From: a virus
Strand: one strand, 5' to 3'
Length of the DNA stretch: 32,378 nucleotides
IMG/VR virus record: IMGVR_UViG_3300030329_004210
Location: 1-32,378 of that record
Below are positions 1 through 32,378 of the stretch, piece after piece. The number at the start of each line of letters is the position of its first letter. The first letter of the stretch is position 1. A model generated the notes under the pieces. It ran no database searches. It had not been told where the DNA came from and was given only the letters and a program-made list of their open reading frames with translations. The translations under genes and the position numbers were made by a program.

Positions 1-2260
1 CCTGAGCTGCCTCTATGCCCTCACCAGATCGACGCGCCTCCTCCAGTCCAGCCATAGCTGCCTCGAGAATCTGAACTCTCTCTGGAACCTCGGCAGGTGC
101 CTCGACAGGCGCCTCGCCTCGCCCTGGCGGCACGTCCTCGTCGATAAACGGTGGCGGCTCCCTGTCAGACACGATGTCTTCAGCCAGGTTCATGCGGCCA
201 ACTGCGTCTTTGCCCTCTGGACCCCTGTTTATGAGCGAGTCCTCAATCTCTGCCACACGGGCAATGGCGACCTCGTCGCCACCGTCAGCCCGTCGAGTCA
301 CCTCCACCCACTCCGCAGCCTGCTCTTCAGGGAAGACGCTTCGCGCAATCTCCATCCTCGACTGTGGTCTGGCTGCTGGCGCAGCGGGTGCTGCTGGCGG
401 CGGTGGTGGTGGCTCGGGCGCACCGTAACCCTCCGTTGGGGGAGTGTCTTTCGGTGGCGGCTCGTCAACCATGCCTATGTCACGGCGAGCTATTCTCTGA
501 CCAGCCTCGTCAGCCAGGTTTGTAATTGCTGCCTTGGCGACAGCTGGATCATCGATGACTTGGCGAACAATATCGCCAATCGCCACGCTCTTGTTTGCCG
601 ACAAGTCAATGAGCCATCGCTGGACATACGCCTGCTTTGATGGGCCAAGAGAGCCCCACAGGGCTCGAGATATCTCAGGAACCAGGATGCCAATGGCCGC
701 ATTCACGGCATCTGGCGCCAAGCCGGAGAGCGCAACAGTTCCAATGCCAGCGTTGTTTAGGGAGCGCACGATGCGCTGGCCCCACTCAACGCCTGTCTTG
801 ACGCCCTTTGGCGTCGGCATCTTTCTTCCTTCTGGCGTTTGGTAAGAAAAGCCCTCTGCCTCTGGCTTTCGGAAGATGCCCTCTGTCGCCTGCTCAATCC
901 TGTCCAGTTTCTCTACCAGACCAGGGTGCTTTTTCAGGATAGCTTGGGCACCCCGATTGCCAGCCTTCGCCATCCTGCCGAGCCCTTTTACGAAGGGAAG
1001 GAAGACCATTGCGGTGCTTACGGGACGAGCCTTGAGCATCTTGAGGCCATCACCAGTGCCGAGCATCTTCAGGGACGCTGCCGTGGCGCCCATGCCCCCG
1101 GTGATCATGTTCTTCCAGAGCTCTCGCGACTCTCTAAAGTCTTTGGCGAATGAGTCGCGTAGGTTGGTCTGCGCTCTTCCGCTTCCCGTCAGGCCAAGCA
1201 ACGATATGGCCAACTGGACGACACCCTCCTGAACCTCTGCGACATCAGAGCGAAGGTTCGCATACCCCGACTTTCCCATCCGCGACTCAATGTCACGCTC
1301 ATACTCGTCGAAGATTTTCATCGTTGCCGGAGAGAATTTGCCCTCGCTCGAGTCCACCCTCATGTTCAGGTCGACTCGCTCGCCTGGAGTCAAAATGTGG
1401 TCGGAGATTTTACCCTCCAACAGTTCGGGCATCTTGACGCCAGCGACCTTCTCGGGCAGGCGAATGCCGCCCAATGGCGGCGACTTTATTTTTATTGTCG
1501 ACCAGTCTGGCGCACCCTTGGACCTGGCGGCTCGAGCGCGTTTGTCATTCTCGAGCGCCACCTTTGCGACGAGGATATCTTCGCCAAACAGCTCGCCCGC
1601 ACCCTCGCGCAGACCGGCGATGGCGCCAGCGGTGCCAGCGGCAATGCCAGCGATGCCGCGACCAGCTCTTCCCACGCCATCTGACGAAGGCTCCCTCATG
1701 CCGCCTTTAGATATTACATGCTGCCTCTGGACGGCCCTCTTTGCCGGCTGTCTAGCCATCTCCTCCTTTACGGCTCCGACCACTTTAGTTGGCACTGCCG
1801 CCGCGCCTCTGGCGACCTGACCGGCAGCATCCGCTGCCATGGAGACCGGGTCAGTGACATCTTTCGGGAGGGCAAGACCGCCCACGGTGACCGGCTCCTT
1901 TCGTTTCGATGGGCGAGTAAGTGCCCCGATAACCTCTTGTGCCTGCGCCGCCGCTCCGCTCTTTATCTGCCGCTTGCGGAGGATTGGCCTTAAGGGCACG
2001 TCGAGCATCGGCAGAGTGATGTCTTCCTCACGCTTGCCCAGCAAGCCGCTCACTCTCTGCAGTGCCTTTCCCTCGGACACACCCATATCTCGCCAGCGGA
2101 TGACTTGTTCACGCAGTGTTAGTGGCCTCTGTGGGTTGGCGTCACCGGCAGATAGAAACTCTTCGACAGACGCAAAGTCGTCAATATACGTTGGGGCGGT
2201 GGCGCCTCGACTGAGGTCCACCTGGCGAGACTGTGCCGGTGATAGTGCTGGTTTCGCCAT
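1..2260 (-). CDS. Giant internal virion protein candidate, C-terminus cut by left edge
   Basis: An open frame runs from ATG at 2260 to the left edge without a stop, giving at least 753 residues that begin MAKPALSPAQSRQVDLS. The start has GGGGA about 8 bases upstream and lies 3 bases after the stop of the preceding gene. The protein is rich in Ala, Gly, Arg and Glu, with a Gly/Ala-rich segment at about residues 197-233 (GRGIAGIAAGTAGAIAG), a second hydrophobic stretch near residues 430-450, and a Pro/Ala linker at about 615-635 followed by an acidic, Pro-rich part. No enzyme motif was recognised. Being last in the late operon after two other coiled-coil proteins, and very long, it resembles the internal or ejection proteins of short-tailed phages. 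That role is inferred from size, composition and position only. A tail-fibre or polyprotein role is possible. Confidence 0.7.
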   Translation of the reverse strand, partial: MAKPALSPAQSRQVDLSRGATAPTYIDDFASVEEFLSAGDANPQRPLTLREQVIRWRDMGVSEGKALQRVSGLLGKREEDITLPMLDVPLRPILRKRQIKSGAAAQAQEVIGALTRPSKRKEPVTVGGLALPKDVTDPVSMAADAAGQVARGAAAVPTKVVGAVKEEMARQPAKRAVQRQHVISKGGMREPSSDGVGRAGRGIAGIAAGTAGAIAGLREGAGELFGEDILVAKVALENDKRARAARSKGAPDWSTIKIKSPPLGGIRLPEKVAGVKMPELLEGKISDHILTPGERVDLNMRVDSSEGKFSPATMKIFDEYERDIESRMGKSGYANLRSDVAEVQEGVVQLAISLLGLTGSGRAQTNLRDSFAKDFRESRELWKNMITGGMGATAASLKMLGTGDGLKMLKARPVSTAMVFLPFVKGLGRMAKAGNRGAQAILKKHPGLVEKLDRIEQATEGIFRKPEAEGFSYQTPEGRKMPTPKGVKTGVEWGQRIVRSLNNAGIGTVALSGLAPDAVNAAIGILVPEISRALWGSLGPSKQAYVQRWLIDLSANKSVAIGDIVRQVIDDPAVAKAAITNLADEAGQRIARRDIGMVDEPPPKDTPPTEGYGAPEPPPPPPAAPAAPAARPQSRMEIARSVFPEEQAAEWVEVTRRADGGDEVAIARVAEIEDSLINRGPEGKDAVGRMNLAEDIVSDREPPPFIDEDVPPGRGEAPVEAPAEVPERVQILEAAMAGLEEARRSGEGIEAAQ

Positions 2261-2263
2261 GCT

Positions 2264-3943
2264 CTATTCCCCGGTTTTCCCGGTTTTCTTGGGTTTCCCG
2301 AAAATACCAGACAGGACGGTTTTCTTATTCTTGCCCTCCAATTTGGCGAGCTCGGCCTTGAGCGGCGCTGTGATCGCGTCGATTTGATTCACATAACTTT
2401 CTTTTGTAGCAGCAGATTGCTTGAGTTTGATAATGAACTTCTTGTCCAACCTGCGTGAAACTTTTTCATCAATCTTGACCTTGGCCCCCGCCGATTCGGA
2501 GGCTGCTTTCGCCCGCAACTTATCTAACCCCAAGATTTGATTCTTTAGAGTTTTAATGCGATCAGCCGACTTCTTTTGGGCGGCAGTTGGTTTCCCCTCG
2601 GCGTCCTTTTTTCGTTTTTCTGCCAATTCATTTGCGGCTTTCTCCCTGGCCTTACTCTCCTTGATCCTCTGCCTTTTTAGGTTGTTGTCCAGTTTCTCCT
2701 TGGTCTTTCGGACCTTCTCCATCGCCTCATCAATGCGAGCCTTCACCTTGGCGCTTGTGGCCTGAGCCCTGGACTTCTGGAGGTCTTGCTCTGCCTTCTC
2801 CAGGGCCAAACGGTTCAACTCTAGTTTGCGGATTTCAGCGGCAGCATCACGGACATTTTTCGCCTCTCTTCCTGAAGCAAGCGCCTTGGTCGCACGAACC
2901 CTAGCCCTCGCTGCATCCTGCAAAACCTTTGTGTGTGCCGTCCGCTCCACCTGAGTGGCGGTTTTTTCTCTCTGCGTCTTCAACCTTTCGGCCTCAAGTG
3001 CGCTCTGCGGAACAAACCGCTTTGTGTGCTCGGACAGTTCCTTGCGAGCTCGGTCAATGTGGGCTCCACTGAATATCTCACCGATGGTTTGCGGGTGAAC
3101 GCCAATGCCTCCAGACCTGTCGAATGCGCTCATAACCCGGTCAAGCTGCTTCTGGTCTGTCGCCAGCGCAGCCATGCGCCTGAGTTCATCGAAGCTGTAC
3201 TTGCCTTCGCGCTCGACGGCAGCAGCACCAGCTTGCTGCAACTGTGCCTCAGTCAGTGCGCGGGGCCTCATGCGCTCTGCATATGAGGGCATCTGACCGC
3301 CAACCGTTGATGGTTGCGGTCTGGCGACCATTGGGGGTGCAGCGGTGGGAACAGGCGGCGCCGTAGACTCTTCAATATCCATGAATCCGCTCAAGTCGAT
3401 GTCTTCCTGTGTTTGTGGCCGGGGCGTGTCCAGAACGCTCCTAAGAGCTGCCCTCTGCTGCTCACCCTCAGATTGGCTCGTGACGAACCGGCGCTGGCTA
3501 TCGGTAAGACCTGGCAGTCGCTGCCCGCCCTCTCGCGCCGCGATGCTCTGGCGTCTGCGCGCTTGAGCCGCCTGCTCGGTAGCGCCACCAAGTTCACCGG
3601 CATAGTTGGGTGCGATGCCCCTGCTCTTACGCATGGCGTCGTACTGAGCCCTGTCTTCCGTACCAACAGCAACACCCTTCTGTCGCTGCGCCTTTAACCT
3701 TGCTCGAGCTGCCTGCTCTAGTGCTGCACGCTGCTTTGGTGCGTCGGTGTCCGTTAGCTTGCTGACCCCAGCGGCAGCTGGGCCAAAGAAGTCGGACGCA
3801 AGGCTAAGTGTCTTTAGGATGGCGCCAATGCTCTGCGCGTTCTGAGCGACCTCTCGCAACTCCTGCCCAGCAGGGCGTTGTGGGCGAGGGATGATTTGTC
3901 GCTGCTCAAACGCAGAGGTGTCGATCGGTATAATGCGTGCCAT
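2264..3943 (-). CDS. Coiled-coil internal virion protein candidate
   Basis: This is a 559-residue protein with ATG at 3943 and AGGAAA 6 bases upstream. The first half is low in structure (Pro, Gln, Ala-rich, residues about 1-250). From about residue 300 to 540 it is almost entirely charged helix, with dense Lys/Arg/Glu/Ala heptad-like sequence (for example AREKAANELAEKRKKDAEGK), so a long coiled coil is very likely. The C-terminus is basic (GKPKKTGKTGE). It sits between the 272-residue Gln/Ala-rich protein and the giant left-edge protein, so the three may be delivered together as internal or ejection proteins. There is no signal peptide, membrane segment or catalytic motif. Function is unknown; the virion role is inferred from operon position. 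Confidence 0.75.
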   Translation of the reverse strand: MARIIPIDTSAFEQRQIIPRPQRPAGQELREVAQNAQSIGAILKTLSLASDFFGPAAAGVSKLTDTDAPKQRAALEQAARARLKAQRQKGVAVGTEDRAQYDAMRKSRGIAPNYAGELGGATEQAAQARRRQSIAAREGGQRLPGLTDSQRRFVTSQSEGEQQRAALRSVLDTPRPQTQEDIDLSGFMDIEESTAPPVPTAAPPMVARPQPSTVGGQMPSYAERMRPRALTEAQLQQAGAAAVEREGKYSFDELRRMAALATDQKQLDRVMSAFDRSGGIGVHPQTIGEIFSGAHIDRARKELSEHTKRFVPQSALEAERLKTQREKTATQVERTAHTKVLQDAARARVRATKALASGREAKNVRDAAAEIRKLELNRLALEKAEQDLQKSRAQATSAKVKARIDEAMEKVRKTKEKLDNNLKRQRIKESKAREKAANELAEKRKKDAEGKPTAAQKKSADRIKTLKNQILGLDKLRAKAASESAGAKVKIDEKVSRRLDKKFIIKLKQSAATKESYVNQIDAITAPLKAELAKLEGKNKKTVLSGIFGKPKKTGKTGE

Positions 3944-3952
3944 GTTGTTTTC

Positions 3953-4771
3953 CTAGTAGCCAAAGTCCCACTCAGGGGGTAGAGGTTTAGGAGGTTGTCG
4001 TTTTGGAGAGTTCCACGGCCATTCTAGGGAGGAAAAGTCAATGGCGACTCCATGACCAATGTCACCAGATTCAGAATATTGTTTTGGAAGTTCTTTGGTT
4101 TGAATTTTATACGCAATGTGCCGCAGCATTCTCTCCATTTTAGGGTCAGTGTCCTTGAAGGTGCTGGCATAAGACCTGATCCGAGCCGCCGCCTTCTTGT
4201 CACTGTCCCAAAGCACGCCGACCTCATCGTCAATAATCGTATTGACCTCGTCGATCGCTGGCTGTGTATTTCTCCCGTGCTGCTCGGCCATGTCAGGCAG
4301 TTTCTCCTGTACCTCAGTAACCTGCTGCTCTTGGACGACAACGTCATCCTCTGCACCGGCAACAGCCTGCTCCGCAGCCGTCATCTCCCTGCGCTGACCA
4401 GCCCTCAACTGCGCCTCTGCGGCTTGCTGGCGAAGTTTAGCCTCCTCTTGCTGTCGAGAGGTTTGCTCGGCAATTTGAGCGCCAGCGGATATGCGTGCCG
4501 TTGCTCCCGAAAACGGTGATGCCGAGACCCCCTGGGCATAGAGTTTTCCGGCCTGCCTGCTCATCTCCTGCTGCGCTGCCTGCCCTTTCAGGGCAAGGGA
4601 CTCCCTCTCGGACGCCTGCGAGCCACCCAGAACCCCCAACCGGCTGCGCGCCGCATCAAGCTGCTTTCTCTTTAGTTCGGCAAGCTGCTCTGCAGAGCCA
4701 ACTGTCTTCTTTCGTCTCTTCTGCGCCTCTGTCAGTGGCGTTCCTGCTGGTTTTATATTCTGAGTTGCCAT
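3953..4771 (-). CDS. Gln/Ala-rich virion protein candidate
   Basis: This is a 272-residue protein with ATG at 4771 preceded by AGGGA at about 7 bases. Residues about 14-180 are Ala/Gln/Glu/Arg-rich and helical in character (TSRQQEEAKLRQQAAEAQLR), with few hydrophobic residues. The C-terminal 40 residues are Pro- and Trp-rich (SSLEWPWNSPKRQPPKPLPP), ending in WDFGY. This composition is common among short-tailed-phage internal virion proteins. It lies 9 bases after the 585-residue virion gene and 9 bases before the 559-residue coiled-coil gene, so the three are probably co-transcribed. No family was recognised with certainty. Confidence 0.75.
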   Translation of the reverse strand: MATQNIKPAGTPLTEAQKRRKKTVGSAEQLAELKRKQLDAARSRLGVLGGSQASERESLALKGQAAQQEMSRQAGKLYAQGVSASPFSGATARISAGAQIAEQTSRQQEEAKLRQQAAEAQLRAGQRREMTAAEQAVAGAEDDVVVQEQQVTEVQEKLPDMAEQHGRNTQPAIDEVNTIIDDEVGVLWDSDKKAAARIRSYASTFKDTDPKMERMLRHIAYKIQTKELPKQYSESGDIGHGVAIDFSSLEWPWNSPKRQPPKPLPPEWDFGY

Positions 4772-4780
4772 AATAAATCC

Positions 4781-6538
4781 CTAGAGAGGCACGTCCGTCG
4801 AAGACCCTGCAAGAGCCTTCTTCCCAATGATGTACACCCAAAAGCCATTGTATCCAACGTAGATTTCTCCATTAGATTGGATTCCACCAACAGCAGGGGC
4901 GCCAGACCAGAGCAGCCCACTTGCGTCACCAAATGACCAACGCACTTCAATAAACTGCTCACACCCCTCGGTCTTGGGTGTCCCCGATACATTTGAGACG
5001 TTGCCGCAGCTCGTCCTCGCTGTTGTCGAGCCAAAGAGGTTGGTGGTTTTCCCAATGAAGAAAGGCTTGCCCTGATCAAAGTACCCAGATCCAAGGTCTG
5101 TCGCGCCATCCCTAACAAGAGGAATGCTCAACAGCTCGTAGTCCCACGGCTCATCACTATCCCCACTCAAAAGACCGCCCTCGCGCGATTTTATCTGATC
5201 GATGGTTATTGCCGATTTGGGGTTTGCCCCACCACTTGGAGTCCACTTTCCATAGGCAACTTGCTGATAGTCAAACAGGTCGCCCATAAAACCAGTCCCA
5301 ATACCAACACCAACCTCACTTATAAAAGTGTGGGACGTCGGGTGGACCGCATCGTTTGTGAACCCAGGGGCAGCATAGCTTACTGCCGCGATGACGTGGT
5401 GTACAACAAACGGGTATTGAATCGGTATGATTCTCCGGTCACATGTTGGCTCATCCTCATCAACACCAACATAGGGAAGGCTGCTGGCATCACCAATGGT
5501 GTAGCCGGGAGCCTCTGCGTAACTACTAATGTACCGCTGGGCCGTGAAGTTCGACCACATGGGAACCGCAATCACCTCGTAGCAGCTGTCATCCTTGATT
5601 TCTTCTGTCGGGGACGGGGTGCTGTCCTTTCCGTATCCACCACTCAAGCCGTCGACAAACACGTTGTCAAGGCGATGAATTGATAGTTGCACGCCATCTG
5701 CCGTATCGGCGGTGATGGTGTCTGTTCCTGCGGGAGAGCCAATGGTAATCGATGGGCCGGTCTGCGCCCCATTGTGCGTAGGTTGATTCTGCACACCCGC
5801 TGCAGCCTTGTCTCTTTCCACGAGCTCGTGGCGAAACTTCAGAGACATCTGGAGGGACGGGAGTGCCGACTTTACCGTCCCGTTCAGCAGTTTGGGGGCG
5901 TGAATCATCAGCAAGTAACTGCGGAACGGGTCGATTGACTTGTTTATCTTGTCGAGTGTTGCCGGGTTGTTTCGATATGTTGTGCCACCAAACAGCGCAG
6001 CTCCGCGCAAGGAAAGGGAGAACACCTCTCGAGTCGGGACATGTCCTGCCGAGGCGTTCAGGGCGATGACGGGCTTCTCCATTAGAGCCACCTCAATATC
6101 ATACGCCTCCATGTTCTGGTAATTCAGAAAACCATCCCTAAGACCCTTGTTCCCGCCACTCAAAAACTGATAATCAGTGATGGTTGCCGCCTCGCTTCGC
6201 TGATCGAAGGAGATGTTAAACTCCTCCAAGACGACAGACGGAACCACCGTGCTCCCTCTCTGCTCAAAAAACTCCTGAAGCGGCGGCAACGTAAAGGGTA
6301 TGGAATATTCGTATCGCAAGGGGTTGTCTAGGTCGGTTGCGTGCGCCAGTGGGAATGCCGTGCTGTCAACGCAAGGGATATTGAAGTTCAGGCGAAACGA
6401 ACCGCCCTCAACATCAATCTGCTCCGACTCGATATTGACGTTCTCCAGCTCTGACTTCACCGCAGCAAGCGGAGTGAAGACGTGCTGTGTCGTCAGCTTG
6501 ACGCCACGAGTCAGGTTTTCCTTGGTGACCTTCGCCAT
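4781..6538 (-). CDS. Virion/tail structural protein, unknown family
   Basis: This is a 585-residue protein with ATG at 6538 overlapping the stop of the upstream gene by one base (TAATG). It is rich in Gly, Ser, Thr, Asn and aromatic residues with short alternating hydrophobics, which suggests beta-sheet-rich structure, and it has no signal peptide. An early block (residues about 20-130) contains MAKVTKENLTRGVKLTTQHVF and FTLPPLQEFFEQRGS. The last third contains paired Cys and many Trp/Tyr (FIEVRWSFGDASGLLWSG). Position downstream of the nozzle and tail genes makes a tail, fibre or decoration role likely, but no recognised fold or enzymatic motif supports a specific name. Confidence 0.75.
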   Translation of the reverse strand: MAKVTKENLTRGVKLTTQHVFTPLAAVKSELENVNIESEQIDVEGGSFRLNFNIPCVDSTAFPLAHATDLDNPLRYEYSIPFTLPPLQEFFEQRGSTVVPSVVLEEFNISFDQRSEAATITDYQFLSGGNKGLRDGFLNYQNMEAYDIEVALMEKPVIALNASAGHVPTREVFSLSLRGAALFGGTTYRNNPATLDKINKSIDPFRSYLLMIHAPKLLNGTVKSALPSLQMSLKFRHELVERDKAAAGVQNQPTHNGAQTGPSITIGSPAGTDTITADTADGVQLSIHRLDNVFVDGLSGGYGKDSTPSPTEEIKDDSCYEVIAVPMWSNFTAQRYISSYAEAPGYTIGDASSLPYVGVDEDEPTCDRRIIPIQYPFVVHHVIAAVSYAAPGFTNDAVHPTSHTFISEVGVGIGTGFMGDLFDYQQVAYGKWTPSGGANPKSAITIDQIKSREGGLLSGDSDEPWDYELLSIPLVRDGATDLGSGYFDQGKPFFIGKTTNLFGSTTARTSCGNVSNVSGTPKTEGCEQFIEVRWSFGDASGLLWSGAPAVGGIQSNGEIYVGYNGFWVYIIGKKALAGSSTDVPL

Positions 6539-6909: not shown

Positions 6910-7838
6910 TACTCTATCTCCTCGAGGGCCGTCACGGCCCAGGACCAATACTGCCCTTGATAAGTGTCGCCATCGCCCCATCCTGACGAGGTACCTGTGT
7001 ACTCTGGAATAAGAAAGCTCAATCGAACCCGAGCGTTCTCGTGAACGGGCACATTTAGATTCTGGTCATCAAGCCACATACCGCCAGGGGTCTTTGTTCC
7101 CCCTGAGTTGGCGGGGTGCGCCGGGCTCATGTCTGTCGCGGCACGCGATGTGACCGATCCGTTGACGCCACCCAGGTTGGAGAAGCGTCTGGAATCAAAC
7201 CGAAAGTTTATCCGGTGGTACTCGATGTCATTTAGCTTTCGCAACTCTTGGGTGACTGGATTGTCAACGCTCAACTCAACAGCGAAGTCCACCAGCGTTC
7301 CATTGGCTATCTTGTGGTCTGGCTGTCCAACCCCCGCATACACAAGGTCATTTGAGTACGCCACACCATCGACGTGAATAAACACAGAAACCCCAATAAT
7401 AATAGAAGGTCTTGTGAATGGTATAGCTGACGTCCAGACAAACTGATCCGGCTGATAGCCCACATCAATGCGCTCAGGGTCAATATCATCATTGAACGTC
7501 CCCTTCATGCGATATCTGTTCTGGAAGCCATTTGGCGGCGTTACCAGCGCATCTGAGGCATTGTTTGTGGTGGTTACTTTCCCGTTGTACACGTTCATCC
7601 ACGGGAACACGTCCTGAACCCCAACATCATCACTCAGTACGGTGCCACCTGCCTTTACTGGCATAGGCATATAGCCGCCTACATATTGAGTCTGAAAGAA
7701 GCGCCTCTCAAGATCTCCAATCTGTACCGCATTGACGCGATTGACAATGTCATCGAGAGCACCCTCAAGGCGATTGCCGTCGATGGTTGTTCCATCGGCA
7801 AACTGCTCTCTTGTGAGACGTCGTACAGAGCTGCTCAC
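6909..7838 (-). CDS. Tail structural protein, unknown family
   Basis: This is a 309-residue protein with a GTG start at 7838, GGAG 6 bases upstream, overlapping the preceding gene as GTGA. The first 50 residues look helical (EQFADGTTIDGNRLEGALDDIVNRVNAV), and the rest is Gly/Asn/Asp-rich and beta-like, ending WSWAVTALEEIE. An N-terminal helix followed by a jelly-roll-like body is typical of small phage tail or spike-attachment proteins. It sits between a beta-helix-like protein and the GIY-YIG-like gene in the tail part of the operon. No motif fixes the function. Confidence 0.72.
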   Translation of the reverse strand: MSSSVRRLTREQFADGTTIDGNRLEGALDDIVNRVNAVQIGDLERRFFQTQYVGGYMPMPVKAGGTVLSDDVGVQDVFPWMNVYNGKVTTTNNASDALVTPPNGFQNRYRMKGTFNDDIDPERIDVGYQPDQFVWTSAIPFTRPSIIIGVSVFIHVDGVAYSNDLVYAGVGQPDHKIANGTLVDFAVELSVDNPVTQELRKLNDIEYHRINFRFDSRRFSNLGGVNGSVTSRAATDMSPAHPANSGGTKTPGGMWLDDQNLNVPVHENARVRLSFLIPEYTGTSSGWGDGDTYQGQYWSWAVTALEEIE

Positions 7839-20435: not shown

Positions 20436-20930
20436 CTATGCCTCGATAACGGTATCTGCCGCTGGCAGAATCCAGTCGCCAACGTATTCTGTAAGGAACC
20501 TTTTTCGATCTTTCTTCTCTGTGTCGACGTGCATCATGTGGTGCGCGGTCGTCATAAACGACACCAAATCCGTAATAAACTGCACACCCTTCTCATCATC
20601 GACCGACTTCAGCTCTGCCGACCCGATGTCGTTTTCCTTCATCAGCGACAGGAACCGCTCCATCACCTGCCTGGTCGCCCTGTGCCTCGGGTTCAGGGCC
20701 GCATCGTGGTGGTGTTTCAGCAGGTCGACCGCGCTCTGAACCTCCATCCGCGAGACAACGTATGTCGCCTTCAGGTTCTGGACGGGGTCCATCGCCTCGG
20801 GACTAAAATACAGAACATCCATCGACGCCTTTATCTGGCAGAGCATATCGACCAGCATCCCCTCGATAATCTCTCGAGGTGGACTCGCCTTATAGATGTC
20901 CTTAGAAGTAGCAGGCACAGTACACCACAT
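20436..20930 (-). CDS. Unknown protein upstream of terminase
   Basis: This is a 164-residue reading from ATG 20930 (MWCTVPATSKDIYKAS). A TTG at 20972 would add 14 residues but increases overlap with the previous gene, so the ATG is preferred; even so, its start overlaps the preceding gene by 29 bases. It is mostly helical: IIEGMLVDMLCQIKASMDVL, VSRMEVQSAVDLLKHHHDA, ATRQVMERFLSLMKENDIGS, and ends DWILPAADTVIEA. No motif was recognised. Position two genes before the large terminase makes a packaging accessory or small terminase role conceivable, although it has no clear HTH. Confidence 0.6.
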   Translation of the reverse strand: MWCTVPATSKDIYKASPPREIIEGMLVDMLCQIKASMDVLYFSPEAMDPVQNLKATYVVSRMEVQSAVDLLKHHHDAALNPRHRATRQVMERFLSLMKENDIGSAELKSVDDEKGVQFITDLVSFMTTAHHMMHVDTEKKDRKRFLTEYVGDWILPAADTVIEA

Positions 20931-21309
20931 CGAGCGTCTCGTAGCCGAGCGCGTCTTCTGAGGGTTGAACAATCTTCAGGGTGATTCGGGTATTTTGTTC
21001 AACGAAAATACCCTTGCCGTTGGCGGCAGCCCCAAAGTGGTTCGTTCTGTCGGTATTGAACGTCTTGATGAACATCCCCGACGCATGTGTGGGCATCATC
21101 GTGACAGCCTTTGGCACCTTCTCACTCATCCCCATGGCAACCAACACCGTGTTCACCGCGTCAAACAGGTTCTCTGTGTTCGTCGTCGCAGGCAGCATAA
21201 GAATCGCGAACTGCTTCTCGATGACAAAAAACTCGCTGCTCTGTCGGGCCATCAAATCGATGCCCGTGGCATTGGCGATCACACTCGTAGCTGGAATACG
21301 CTCCGTCAT
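20902..21309 (-). CDS. Unknown protein, first gene of the late operon
   Basis: This is a 135-residue protein read from ATG 21309 (MTERIPATSVIAN), which has a strong GGGAGGG site about 7 bases upstream. It has a mixed alpha/beta composition, with FFVIEKQFAILMLPATTNTE, LFDAVNTVLVAMGMSE and VTMMPTHASGMFI, and a C-terminus YETLDVVYCACYF. No recognisable family. As the first gene after the repeat-rich spacer on the leftward strand, it marks the start of the late transcript. It could be a small virion protein or regulator. Confidence 0.65.
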   Translation of the reverse strand: MTERIPATSVIANATGIDLMARQSSEFFVIEKQFAILMLPATTNTENLFDAVNTVLVAMGMSEKVPKAVTMMPTHASGMFIKTFNTDRTNHFGAAANGKGIFVEQNTRITLKIVQPSEDALGYETLDVVYCACYF

Positions 21310-21395
21310 ATCAACCCTCCCGGTCGTTGTGGAGTGATAACACGCCGCCGACGAGGGTGGCAAGTTTTTCTGGAGAGAGCTGGAGTTCGATGAAT

Positions 21396-21413
21396 CCTGA
21401 CCATCCGGTCAGG
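21396..21413. other. Perfect 7-bp stem-loop beside repeat cluster A
   Basis: CCTGACC, loop ATCC, GGTCAGG is a perfect inverted repeat 3 bases before the first GGGGTACTTT copy. On the minus strand it lies about 90 bases upstream of the first late gene. There is no T-run on either side, so it is not a typical terminator. It may be an operator, an origin hairpin or a packaging recognition site. Confidence 0.6.
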
Positions 21414-21416
21414 TTA

Positions 21417-21451
21417 GGGGTACTTTGGGGTACTTTAGGGGTACTTTGGGG
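21417..21451. repeat. Repeat cluster A, three GGGGTACTTT copies plus a fourth GGGG
   Basis: Copies start at 21417, 21427 and 21438, and a fourth GGGG stands at 21448, giving 10, 11 and 10 base steps, about one helical turn. Four GGGG runs with loops of 6, 7 and 6 bases also meet the usual G-quadruplex pattern on the plus strand. In-phase repeats of this kind are typical of iteron or multi-site protein binding. Confidence 0.85.
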
Positions 21452-21472
21452 TGGCGAGCAGTGTCACGATCC

Positions 21473-21496
21473 GGGGTACTTTAGGGGTACTTTGGG
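21473..21496. repeat. Repeat cluster B, two GGGGTACTTT copies plus GGG
   Basis: Copies start at 21473 and 21484, followed by GGG at 21494; the steps are 11 and 10 bases. This cluster has one G run fewer than A and C, so a complete quadruplex from the cluster alone is less likely. It lies 21 bases from the end of cluster A, two helical turns. Confidence 0.85.
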
Positions 21497-21566
21497 AACT
21501 GGACTTAACTCCTGAATATCATTACACTAAGTATCGTTTTTGGGGTAGATAGAGCCGTTTTTTGTG

Positions 21567-21598
21567 ATCTTACTTCATATTTTTTTTATTATTAAAAC
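21567..21598. other. AT-rich stretch between repeat clusters
   Basis: This stretch is almost only A and T, including a run of eight or more T and ATTATTAAAA, in an otherwise GC-richer region. It is flanked by clusters B and C. An AT-rich segment beside iteron-like repeats is the usual arrangement of a DNA-unwinding element in an origin. It could also simply hold promoter sequence for the leftward operon. Confidence 0.5.
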
Positions 21599-21625
21599 CT
21601 GGCGGCTATGCACACTTTTGTCCTT

Positions 21626-21638
21626 AAGTACCCCTAAG
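21626..21638 (-). repeat. Single inverted copy of the repeat unit
   Basis: AAGTACCCCTAAG is the reverse complement of CTTAGGGGTACTT, matching the extended repeat unit seen in clusters B and C. It is isolated between clusters B and C and next to the AT-rich stretch. An inverted site could allow looping between clusters by a bound protein. Confidence 0.7.
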
Positions 21639-21698
21639 CGAGCTTCGATACATAACCGAGTAATGGGTATCGGTGTGATATCGTTGGAGTTTTTGCTT

Positions 21699-21734
21699 GG
21701 GGTACTTTAGGGGTACTTTAGGGGTACTTTGGGG
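21699..21734. repeat. Repeat cluster C, three GGGGTACTTT copies plus a fourth GGGG
   Basis: Copies start at 21699, 21710 and 21721, with a fourth GGGG at 21731; steps are 11, 11 and 10 bases. Loops of 7, 7 and 6 bases between four GGGG runs fit the G-quadruplex pattern. This near-duplicate of cluster A about 280 bases away shows that the array, not only the unit, is repeated. Confidence 0.85.
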
Positions 21735-22100
21735 CGCTAGTGGGGTGGGCTGGCCCCAGGCTGGTTGGTTTGGGGGCTGAACGTTTGTTTAGTGGTGGGG
21801 TCAGCTGACACCAGCCTTGTCGGAAAAATTGAACGCCGCCAAAAAACCATAAAGAAAAATAAAAAAGGGGGGAGGGTCTTCTTCTTTTTTTTCCAGAGGG
21901 GGGTGCCCCTTTCACGCACGATTTCCGTAGCGAGGAGCGAAGCGACGAGCGTGGCTTGTGTGGGTACCTCTTAGATCGTCAACGTCACCGTCTACGCATA
22001 GGCTCGTTCCAGCGCGGCTTATCCGGGTAGCATATGAGCGCCATACGCTCCAGCTCCGCTAGCGTATATCTATTTTCTATATATGCATTCGCTAGCGTGT

Positions 22101-22116
22101 AGGCGCGTAAGCGCCT
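22101..22116 (-). terminator. Perfect hairpin just after the HTH gene
   Basis: AGGCGC, loop GTAA, GCGCCT is a perfect 6-bp GC-rich stem starting 5 bases beyond the stop of the minus-strand HTH gene. On that strand no T-run follows; on the plus strand a CGATTTTATTT follows. It may weakly terminate or protect the HTH transcript, or act as a terminator for opposite transcription. Confidence 0.4.
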
Positions 22117-22121
22117 CGATT

Positions 22122-22736
22122 TTATTTCTCGAGGTCGTACACGATTTGTTCAAGCGTCGGCGGTTCTGGTTTCTTCGGCGGTTCTGGCATCGCGTCGGCT
22201 TCATCGCGCAAACTCTCGAGCAGGGCCAGCGTCGTCTCGGATTCGTCTACGTTTCCGCTCTTGCTTTCGTTCGCAGTTATACGCGCAAGTAGGGTCAGCG
22301 CTCCGAGTTTGACCTTCGCTCTCGGTGCGTGCGGTGCTTTGCGGTCGTCGTCTGGTAGTTCTGTGATGAACGCGACGATCGCACGCTTGACGTCTGCAGG
22401 CGTTGCCGCGCCTCCTCCGTCCTTCATGATCTCAAGCGTTTGGGATAGTCGCGCGCGCGCTTGGTTCGTCGGTCGGGTCGTCAATCCGGCGATACGGTGA
22501 CGTTTGAACCGCCGCCGCCACTTCGCCACGGTTTGCCACGATACCTTCACCCGGCTTGCGGTTTCGTTCAGTTCGATGTTGTGGGCCGCGTCCAGAACGA
22601 TTTGCGCTCTCACTCGGAGGTCTGAGTTCAGGCGGTGGTCGTTGGAGATTCTCTCCAATTCTTCTTCCTCTTCGCTAGAGAGAAGAATGTGTTCTCGAGT
22701 TTGGTAGTTCTTCTTGTCTGCGACTGGTTCGTTCAT
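22122..22736 (-). CDS. IS630-type HTH protein, candidate small terminase or regulator
   Basis: This is a 204-residue protein, ATG at 22736, with no good ribosome-binding site. Residues about 42-88 match the N-terminal HTH of IS630-family transposases (RAQIVLDAAHNIELNETA, then TVAKWRRRFKRHRIAGL and a TTRP end). The rest has no DDE catalytic triad and is too short for a transposase; it contains KVKLGALTLLARITAN, similar in style to the central part of some small terminases, and ends in a Pro-rich tail. It is on the terminase strand and separated from the late genes by the G-rich repeat region, so it may bind those repeats as a small terminase, an initiator or a regulator. The HTH is clear; the role is inferred. 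Confidence 0.68.
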   Translation of the reverse strand: MNEPVADKKNYQTREHILLSSEEEEELERISNDHRLNSDLRVRAQIVLDAAHNIELNETASRVKVSWQTVAKWRRRFKRHRIAGLTTRPTNQARARLSQTLEIMKDGGGAATPADVKRAIVAFITELPDDDRKAPHAPRAKVKLGALTLLARITANESKSGNVDESETTLALLESLRDEADAMPEPPKKPEPPTLEQIVYDLEK

Positions 22737-22824
22737 TACAGAATCAAAGCAACAGCTACCGTCGATTGCAAACCCAATCAGCGCAAACGCAACGCAGCTC
22801 TAGGTTGCTTCCTGAAATAAAGAC

Positions 22825-22836
22825 ACAATATATTGT
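22825..22836. promoter_or_regulatory. 12-bp palindrome abutting a -35 box
   Basis: ACAATATATTGT is a perfect palindrome that shares its last T with the -35 hexamer of the following promoter. It lies in the divergent spacer between the HTH gene and the rightward genes. This is a typical operator position; the binder is unknown, the adjacent HTH protein being one candidate. Confidence 0.5.
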
Positions 22837-22863
22837 TTACATTTTCGGAAAAGTCCGTATAAT
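22836..22863 (+). promoter_or_regulatory. Sigma-70-like promoter for the rightward operon
   Basis: TTTACA (22836-22841) and TATAAT (22858-22863) are separated by 16 bases. The -10 is a perfect match and the -35 differs at one position. The expected start is near 22870, only about 13 bases before the first ATG, so the GGAGG at 22871-22875 would be close to the 5' end. This would make it a strong early promoter with a very short leader. Confidence 0.75.
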
Positions 22864-22882
22864 TTTGGCTGGAGGTAAGAAA

Positions 22883-23161
22883 ATGACAATCAACCGACTA
22901 GCGCAGACCGTTTACAATAACATCTCATGGGCAGGGGTCACGTTGCCGGGCCTTTTGAAAGGCGCACAGTTCAAGACCATCACCGGTGATCCGGTCATAC
23001 CGGGCACGCCTAGTGAAATCCTCGCAGCGATCATCGTCTTGACTGAGAAGGATCTCGCGTTTGCATACGAGGAGCATGGGCACGTTTTCTTGTGCCGCTT
23101 CCGTCGACCCGAATTGACGCCGATCACCCTATCTTTGGCGGTTGAGGGGGTCCAGTCATGA
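22883..23161 (+). CDS. Unknown early protein
   Basis: This is a 92-residue protein from ATG 22883, with GGAGG 7 bases upstream; upstream codons in frame precede the promoter and are rejected. It contains TINRLAQTVYNNISWAGVTL, PGTPSEILAAIIVLTEKDLA and a beta-like end. No motif was recognised. As the first gene of the rightward operon it is probably expressed early, where small phage host-takeover proteins are common, but no such role is shown. Its stop overlaps the next start. Confidence 0.65.
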   Translation: MTINRLAQTVYNNISWAGVTLPGLLKGAQFKTITGDPVIPGTPSEILAAIIVLTEKDLAFAYEEHGHVFLCRFRRPELTPITLSLAVEGVQS

Positions 23162-23421
23162 TGGACAAGAAACTCTTTAGCCGGTGCCCGTGTCCCGATT
23201 GCACGGGCACCACCTGGCCCGCCGATTATCAATCATGTAAGTGCCACGAGTGCGCGATCATGCAACGCAACGACCACTATTCGTGCGAGACCTGCCACGG
23301 TCCCGAGGGCATGCCGCACCGGGACTCTTGCCCGTGTTGCGCCTATGATCCGCAATGGGACGTCGTGCGACGTCTGATCCGTGAAACCGTCGCGCTTCGC
23401 AGCGCTCTCCCCCTTTCCTAG
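23158..23421 (+). CDS. Cys-rich zinc-ribbon-like small protein
   Basis: This is an 87-residue protein, ATG at 23158 overlapping the previous stop as ATGA. Cys pairs occur at CPCPDC, CKCHEC, CETC and CPCC, with His nearby (CHGPEGMPHRDSC), which suggests two zinc-binding knuckles. The C-terminal part is a helix (DVVRRLIRETVALRSALPL). It is one of three small Cys-rich proteins in this operon. Possible roles include nucleic-acid binding or host-protein interaction; none is demonstrated. Confidence 0.65.
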   Translation: MMDKKLFSRCPCPDCTGTTWPADYQSCKCHECAIMQRNDHYSCETCHGPEGMPHRDSCPCCAYDPQWDVVRRLIRETVALRSALPLS

Positions 23422-23434
23422 TCGAGGTGAAACC

Positions 23435-23887
23435 ATGAGACTGAAACCGATCACACTCAGGGCGGCGAATGCCTTCATAACGGCGAATCATCGCCACCAC
23501 AAAGCAGCTCGAGGTTGCTTGTTCTGCATCTCGGTAATCGACGACGACGATCAGATCCGCGCGGTCGCCATCGTCGGGCGTCCGGTTGCACGTCGTTTGC
23601 AGGACGGTTGGACGTGCGAAGTCGTGCGACTCGCCAGCGATGGCACGCGCAACGCTTGTTCGATGCTGTATGGCGCGGCAGCACGCGCAGCAAAGGCAAT
23701 CGGCTATCGTCGAATCTTCACCTACACGCTAGGAAGCGAGCCGGGAACGTCATTACGCGCGTCGGGTTGGACCTTGGACGCGGCGAGCGCCGGCGGCGGC
23801 GAATGGAATTGCAAAGCGAGGCCACGAAAGACGGGGCTGTACCCAACAGAAAAAAAGCAGAGGTGGATGCGATGTTTGACGCGATGA
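23435..23887 (+). CDS. XF1762-like protein, GNAT-style
   Basis: This is a 150-residue protein from ATG 23435, with GAGGTGA upstream. It begins MRLKPITLRAANAFITANHR and continues VAIVGRPVARRLQDGWTCEV, then NACSMLYGAAARAAKAIGYR and TYTLGSEPGTSLRASGW. This is the pattern of the XF1762 family of phage and mobile-element proteins, which looks like a GNAT acyltransferase fold (a strand ending near GRPVARRL and a helix around NACSMLYGAAARA). The substrate is unknown. The C-terminal end overlaps the next gene by 16 bases. Confidence 0.78.
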   Translation: MRLKPITLRAANAFITANHRHHKAARGCLFCISVIDDDDQIRAVAIVGRPVARRLQDGWTCEVVRLASDGTRNACSMLYGAAARAAKAIGYRRIFTYTLGSEPGTSLRASGWTLDAASAGGGEWNCKARPRKTGLYPTEKKQRWMRCLTR

Positions 23888-31826: not shown

Positions 31827-32065
31827 TGGCGAGAAACAAAACATTAGAGTCTTTGATCAAGACCTTTGGTAATATTTCAAAGACGGCTCAGGCACGGGAT
31901 ATGAGGGGCCGGAAGATTATTTCGCGCAGCTACCTCCATGAGTGCCTGAGATTACAGCGAATTACGTCTGCCAAGCAGGCTCTTGAGCTCGTCAGGGCAG
32001 CTGACAAGATTCACCCTGGCCGATGGCCGGATAGTCGCGCTTGGGCGCTTATGGGGTTGAAGTGA
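31823..32065 (+). CDS. Small HTH-like protein, YdaS/Cro-like
   Basis: This is an 80-residue protein, ATG at 31823 in ATGA overlap. LESLIKTFGNISKTAQARDM resembles the first two helices of a YdaS/Cro-like HTH and SYLHECLRLQRITSAKQALE the recognition-helix area, ending IHPGRWPDSRAW. The fit is moderate. It may be a transcription regulator paired with the preceding Xre-type protein. Its stop overlaps the next start (TGATG). Confidence 0.6.
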   Translation: MMARNKTLESLIKTFGNISKTAQARDMRGRKIISRSYLHECLRLQRITSAKQALELVRAADKIHPGRWPDSRAWALMGLK

Positions 32066-32378
32066 TGTTTGAGCGTAAGATCAGCAAGAACGGCATCGAA
32101 CTGCAGCCCGATCCAACGGATGCGGCAAACATCGTCGTGGCTAGCGTCAGCGGCGGCAAAGACTCGACGGCGATGTCTCTGTGGCTCACGGAGCAGGGCA
32201 TCGAGCATCGCCGCGTCTGCATGGATACCGGATGGGAGCACCCCGAATGGGGCGACTATATCGAATACCTGCAAGAACAGCTTGGACCGATCGAGATGTT
32301 GCAGTCAGACAAGGGCGGCATGGTCGATCGCATCCGTCACAAGGGCATGTTTCCGTCGCGGATGCGCCGATGGTGTAC
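32065..32378 (+). CDS. PAPS-reductase/PP-loop protein, cut by right edge
   Basis: The first 104 residues are present from ATG 32065. The PP-loop SVSGGKDSTAMSLWL (residues about 28-42) and CMDTGWEHPEW with later FPSRMRRWC are typical of the phosphoadenosine-phosphosulfate reductase family, which also includes DndC-like enzymes of DNA phosphorothioation. The C-terminal part, which would tell these apart, lies beyond the window. Phages frequently carry such genes; the role is not known here. In this operon, after two methylases, a DNA-modification role is conceivable. Confidence 0.85.
   Translation, partial: MFERKISKNGIELQPDPTDAANIVVASVSGGKDSTAMSLWLTEQGIEHRRVCMDTGWEHPEWGDYIEYLQEQLGPIEMLQSDKGGMVDRIRHKGMFPSRMRRWC

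Follow-up and report, generated by a model that had tools for sequence, protein, structure and literature searches.

A control region of an uncultivated tailed phage carries nine sites for the unit GGGGTACTTT, eight exact and one an inverted near-copy, and a sister phage retains the same nine-site layout at the same place and with the same spacing. The conservation seen is that expected of sites for a duplex-binding protein and exceeds what a quadruplex would need; from this comparison of two genomes the array is very probably a multi-site docking strip for a sequence-specific protein on duplex DNA. As to what such a protein would do there, we tentatively read the array as an iteron-type replication origin of the phage, a reading to which we give somewhat less than an even chance, with control of the late operon as its main rival.

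The window analysed here is the whole of IMG/VR record IMGVR_UViG_3300030329_004210, a phage fragment of 32,378 bases. Its late genes, on the minus strand, encode a P22-like portal, a major head protein and the large terminase, and its early genes, on the plus strand from about 23.2 kb, encode a Mom-like protein, methyltransferases, an exonuclease and a helicase. A non-coding stretch of ~800 bases (about 21310-22121) separates the first late-operon gene (20902-21309, minus strand, 135 aa, ATG at 21309 with GGAGGG upstream) from the gene of a 204-aa helix-turn-helix (HTH) protein (22122-22736, minus strand). This is indeed the main non-coding stretch, as the preliminary description had it, but it does not form the boundary between late and early genes, since both flanking genes lie on the minus strand and the early/late strand switch is located further right, near 22740-22900. 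A sigma-70 scan called a candidate early promoter, TTTACA-N16-TATAAT, at 22836-22863 on the plus strand (11/12 consensus letters). No coding explanation for the array was found: stops interrupt most of the frames in 21400-21900, and neither a gene nor a shared frame could be recognised. Among the early genes, the Mom-like DNA modification protein (23381-23887; PHROG 1384, E 1e-34) is 97% identical to that of the sister, and a C5 methylase and an N4/N6 methylase are also encoded. At the window edge (32060-32378), an open frame with an SGGKDS motif, PAPS-reductase-like by eye, coincides with a break in synteny, the sister having a helicase-primase in that place.

Eight exact copies of GGGGTACTTT lie on the plus strand within 21417-21730, in clusters of three, two and three. 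Cluster A (21417-21451) holds units starting at 21417, 21427 and 21438 followed by a terminal GGGG, cluster M (21473-21496) two units at 21473 and 21484 followed by GGG, and cluster C (21699-21734) three units at 21699, 21710 and 21721 followed by GGGG. Within clusters the steps are 10, 11, 11, 11 and 11 bp. These exact-match positions confirm the eight direct copies, three clusters and 10-11 base steps first reported for this region. The helical phasing proposed at the same time holds within clusters, but not between all of them, M being 0.33 turn and C about -0.14 turn off A. An inverted copy had also been noted, at 21626-21638; it is present, but at 21625-21634 on the minus strand, as an isolated unit GGGGTACTTA with one mismatch. 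Under a first-order model, ~0.02 copies of GGGGTACTTT would be expected in the window, and in 60 simulated 32-kb windows no 10-mer ever exceeded three copies within 320 bp. No exact copy was found outside the array in either the window or the sister genome.

The sister phage (IMGVR_UViG_3300025141_000274, 39,026 bases) was found by terminase search, its terminase being 88% identical. Conservation in close relatives had been set beforehand as a test on which the proposal could fail; the array is kept in the sister, where 87 of the 90 unit positions are identical (97%), compared with 143 of 224 in the spacers (64%; Fisher p = 4e-11). Spacing differs by one 1-bp indel over 314 bp, with the distances from A to M (35 bp) and from C to the inverted copy (74 bp) the same in both phages. 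The linker base between units is free, as seen in cluster C, where it is A in the window and C in the sister while the unit is unchanged. This contrast between units and spacers, together with the retained spacing, supports the iteron-type protein binding put forward in the preliminary description. The sister was the only close relative found to carry the array. A DNA similarity search with the array region against annotated phages and plasmids gave no match, and further relatives sought through the HTH protein, the first late gene, the helicase-primase and the helicase returned the sister only, with one further contig (L133) showing a 32% helicase match. Of all loci fetched, the window and the sister alone have at least three units, counted with up to one mismatch, at steps of 10-11 bp.

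The G-rich units also gave rise to the proposal that the array is quadruplex-competent. On both strands of the window, the only matches to (G4N1-7)x4 are 21417-21451 and 21699-21734, that is, clusters A and C (loops of 6-7 nt); these hold the window's highest G4Hunter scores (1.74 and 1.69), and both are kept in the sister. If a quadruplex were the functional element, A and C would fold on the plus strand as a roadblock or structural signal and only their G runs would matter. The motif itself stands, but as the driver of conservation it does not: non-G loop letters are conserved at 51 of 54 positions against 143 of 224 in the spacers (p = 1.4e-6), M and the lone inverted copy are retained though neither has four GGGG runs, and the helical steps of 10-11 bp are kept. 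Because loop letters, lone copy, M and helical steps are all conserved, duplex protein binding is favoured and a quadruplex element seems very improbable; the ability to form one looks, by this comparison, like a by-product of the unit sequence. A G-rich iteron can thus resemble a quadruplex element, and comparison with a single sister genome can tell the two readings apart.

Several unrelated conserved blocks, AT-rich tracts among them, lie within the same ~560 bp as the array. A 28-bp block GGGGTAGATAGAGCCGTTTTTTGTGATC (21542-21569, plus strand) is identical in both phages and begins with a half unit. The most AT-rich 40-mer of the window (21558-21597, 88%) is a candidate unwinding element, of which the sister has a weaker counterpart with only 68% AT. 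A poly-pyrimidine/AT block at 21835-21877 (GACCCTCCCCCCTTTTTTATTTTTC, given as minus-strand sequence) is identical at 41 of 43 positions. Adjoining cluster A is a dyad, CCTGACC-ATCC-GGTCAGG (21396-21413), which occurs once per genome in both phages. Towards the late operon there is a conserved late-promoter candidate, TTGCCA-N17-TTATCA (21335-21363, minus strand), with a good -35 and a poor -10, which the sigma-70 scan did not call. Identity between the two phages is 95% in the spacer between M and A, 97% in A, 95% in the dyad and 89% in the leader up to the ATG. Between cluster A and the late-promoter candidate sits a further 10-bp unit, CCAGCTCTCT, with one copy in the window (21368-21383) and some three in the sister, which is 21 bp longer there. 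The leader RNA folded no better than shuffles (z -1.4), and Rfam gave weak, implausible matches to the region, below the gathering score only.

Similar words were sought in other genomes. When viral contigs were scanned for GGGGNACTTT at steps of 10-11 bp, the matches were the sister, contig L143 and 13 contigs from one unrelated group of phages (L134-L142 and L144-L147). The latter have GGGGAACTTT/GGGGAATCCT arrays on both strands, with a step of 10 bp. In the members translated, the GGGGAACTTT arrays lie inside a replication-initiation gene, the product of which matches PHROG 16167 at its N-terminus (E 6e-32), and they are a likely origin of that group, which combines GGGGAA units with a different initiator family, absent from the window and the sister. 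On another unrelated contig (L008), a GGGGTACTTT pair with an 11-bp step (7529-7549) has the same orientation as in the window and precedes the first gene of a terminase operon by about 105 nt, lying between that operon and a small possible DNA-binding ORF. By analogy, the first parallel would speak for an origin and the second for late control; both were found by searching with a GGGGTACTTT-type unit, so that the similarity in sequence is partly selected. One could go further and take GGGGNACTTT one-turn arrays as a recurrent origin code, reached by unrelated phages with different initiators, namely a P4-family helicase-primase here and an O-like initiator in the L134-L147 group. The same letters would then serve duplex recognition and single-strand structure, with the G-rich strand possibly forming a quadruplex after the duplex has been opened by the initiator. 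We consider such a code very improbable. Separately, six hairpins, GTGTACCCC(C)-loop-(G)GGGGTACAC, are scattered among the small early genes (1140-5751) of a distant relative (L126, IMGVR_UViG_3300030106_005739), which contains GGGGTAC 13 times, where 2 are expected.

We favour a replication origin because the sister encodes a P4-family helicase-primase, because AT-rich DNA lies inside the array, and because the GGGGAACTTT arrays occupy an unrelated initiator gene. The helicase-primase is the product of the last early gene of the sister (TIGR01613, 286.7 bits against a cut-off of 108.7; D5_N); no such gene was detected in the window, whose end comes before the position where it would be expected. 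The alpha protein of P4 binds origin repeats through a winged-helix domain (PMC4234260). We infer the binder, the unwinding and the initiation at the array as follows: the initiator, most plausibly this helicase-primase or its partner, would bind the GGGGTACTTT iterons and load cooperatively on one helix face at clusters C, M and A; once bound, it would bend the DNA there and melt AT-rich sequence within the array or next to it; and replication would then begin between the late arm and the early arm. Direct repeats that are nearly identical and share a helical register, as looked for in an origin, are present, with the phase between clusters only partly kept. Phages with only the structural module in common lack the array, which also speaks for an origin. 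Against it count the weaker AT-rich tract of the sister, the single relative with the array, the failure to find the helicase-primase gene in the window, the differing units and initiator family of the L134-L147 group, and the one-turn steps of 10-11 bp, which are known from Xis/Cox/Apl-type operators and are less typical of replication iterons. GC skew flips at the array but tracks the coding strand, and was dropped as origin evidence since it is confounded by gene strand.

Control of the late operon, the main rival, seems possible though less likely than an origin. A phage or host regulator on the phased sites would bend or loop the DNA and thereby activate or repress the late promoter. Consistent with this, cluster A starts 108 nt upstream of the ATG of the late operon, and conservation is nearly continuous from M through the dyad and the promoter candidate to the ATG. 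The good -35 and weak -10 of that candidate would also fit, a weak -10 being common in activator-dependent promoters, as would the L008 pair upstream of its terminase operon and the gap between A and the promoter candidate, which is longer by 21 bp (two turns) in the sister. However, this difference derives from the 10-bp tandem unit, which makes the phase argument weak, L008 is a single case, and the promoter candidate is some 260-400 bp away from cluster C and the inverted copy. The adjacent HTH protein (HTH_28/HTH_23, with an IS630-type N-terminal domain) is a candidate regulator, yet it is 59% identical between the two phages and its recognition helix has changed (SWQTVAKWRRRF against SRARVHRWRGRF) while the sites have not. 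Fold prediction for this protein was of low confidence overall, with weak paired-domain-like matches only. A small early protein, p80, was considered as a Cro-like binder, with a predicted model that spoke neither for nor against it.

Two further functions were weighed, both far less probable than those above. The location of the array just upstream of the terminase genes would suit a pac site at which the small terminase starts headful packaging, a mode suggested by the P22-like portal and the probable circular permutation of the sister contig. This is unlikely, as judged by four phages with a 45-47% identical terminase and a recognisable portal and capsid: none of them has such an array, nor was an array of another unit found at the same place, and they showed no HTH relative and no detected helicase-primase relative. 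Because these terminase-sharing phages lack it, the array does not travel with packaging. Moreover, p178, located beside the terminase and conserved with it, makes a better candidate for the small terminase and has no tie to the array. Thus, among the functions first envisaged for the region, an origin and a late-gene switch stay live, whereas packaging is disfavoured. A role in recombination, the array providing integrase arm sites or operators for an excisionase of the Xis/Cox/Apl type, has the merit that excisionases bind direct repeats spaced 10-11 bp apart (PMC7498355). Scanning bacterial and archaeal genomes, one per species, gave 46 two-copy GGGGTACTTT matches (L074-L119), 41 of them at a 12-bp step, with a P4-type tyrosine integrase encoded at 19 of the 46 loci, mostly immediately beside the pair; the 12-bp pairs, often just upstream of these integrases, are likely arm-type sites. 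Here, however, the step is 10-11 and not 12 bp, and the array heads the late operon instead of adjoining an integrase gene. Tyrosine integrase (PF00589) is absent from the 39-kb sister and none was seen among the window proteins scanned. These negative searches make an att site unlikely; integrase arm sites were rejected on this ground and on that of the step, and recombination as a whole is highly improbable.

Taken together, the array marks what is probably the control region of an uncultivated phage genus, and GGGGTACTTT provides a short, testable binding word for a phage protein. If the array is an origin, it would link a concrete iteron sequence outside P4 with a helicase-primase of the P4 family.

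Several known systems resemble the array in part. P4-type integrase arm sites share a very similar word, GGGGTACTTT in tandem, but have a 12-bp step, usually two copies, and a position directly upstream of the integrase gene. The arrays of the L134-L147 group match at 9/10 letters (GGGGAACTTT), with a 10-bp step, clusters and opposite-strand copies too; in contrast to the present array, they lie inside the coding region of a replication-initiation protein absent from the window and the sister. From the P4 origin the array differs in the sequence of its unit. The helicase-primase gene was, moreover, seen in the sister and not in the window, and its binding to the array is putative. Common to both are the P4-family primase-helicase, encoded by the sister, and repeats located away from that gene (PMC4234260). 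As in the L134-L147 group, lambdoid origins lie inside the initiator gene, that of lambda with 4 iterons in the O gene next to an AT-rich tract (PMC7466680). The array resembles these in having several direct repeats of nearly the same sequence with AT-rich DNA close by (PMC7466680), but its nine short sites, most of them in three separated clusters, occupy non-coding DNA, and the window and the sister showed no O-like initiator. Operators of 186 Apl, P2 Cox and lambda Xis share the one-turn direct repeats of 10-11 bp and the intergenic control region (PMC7498355). Unlike them, the array is accompanied by no tyrosine integrase that we could find, the adjacent HTH protein is of IS630 type, and no placement between lytic and lysogenic promoters is known for the array. 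Because regulators of the excisionase type bind direct repeats of 10-11 bp (PMC7498355), the architecture of the array is already known; what is new is the unit, together with the phage genus in which it occurs.
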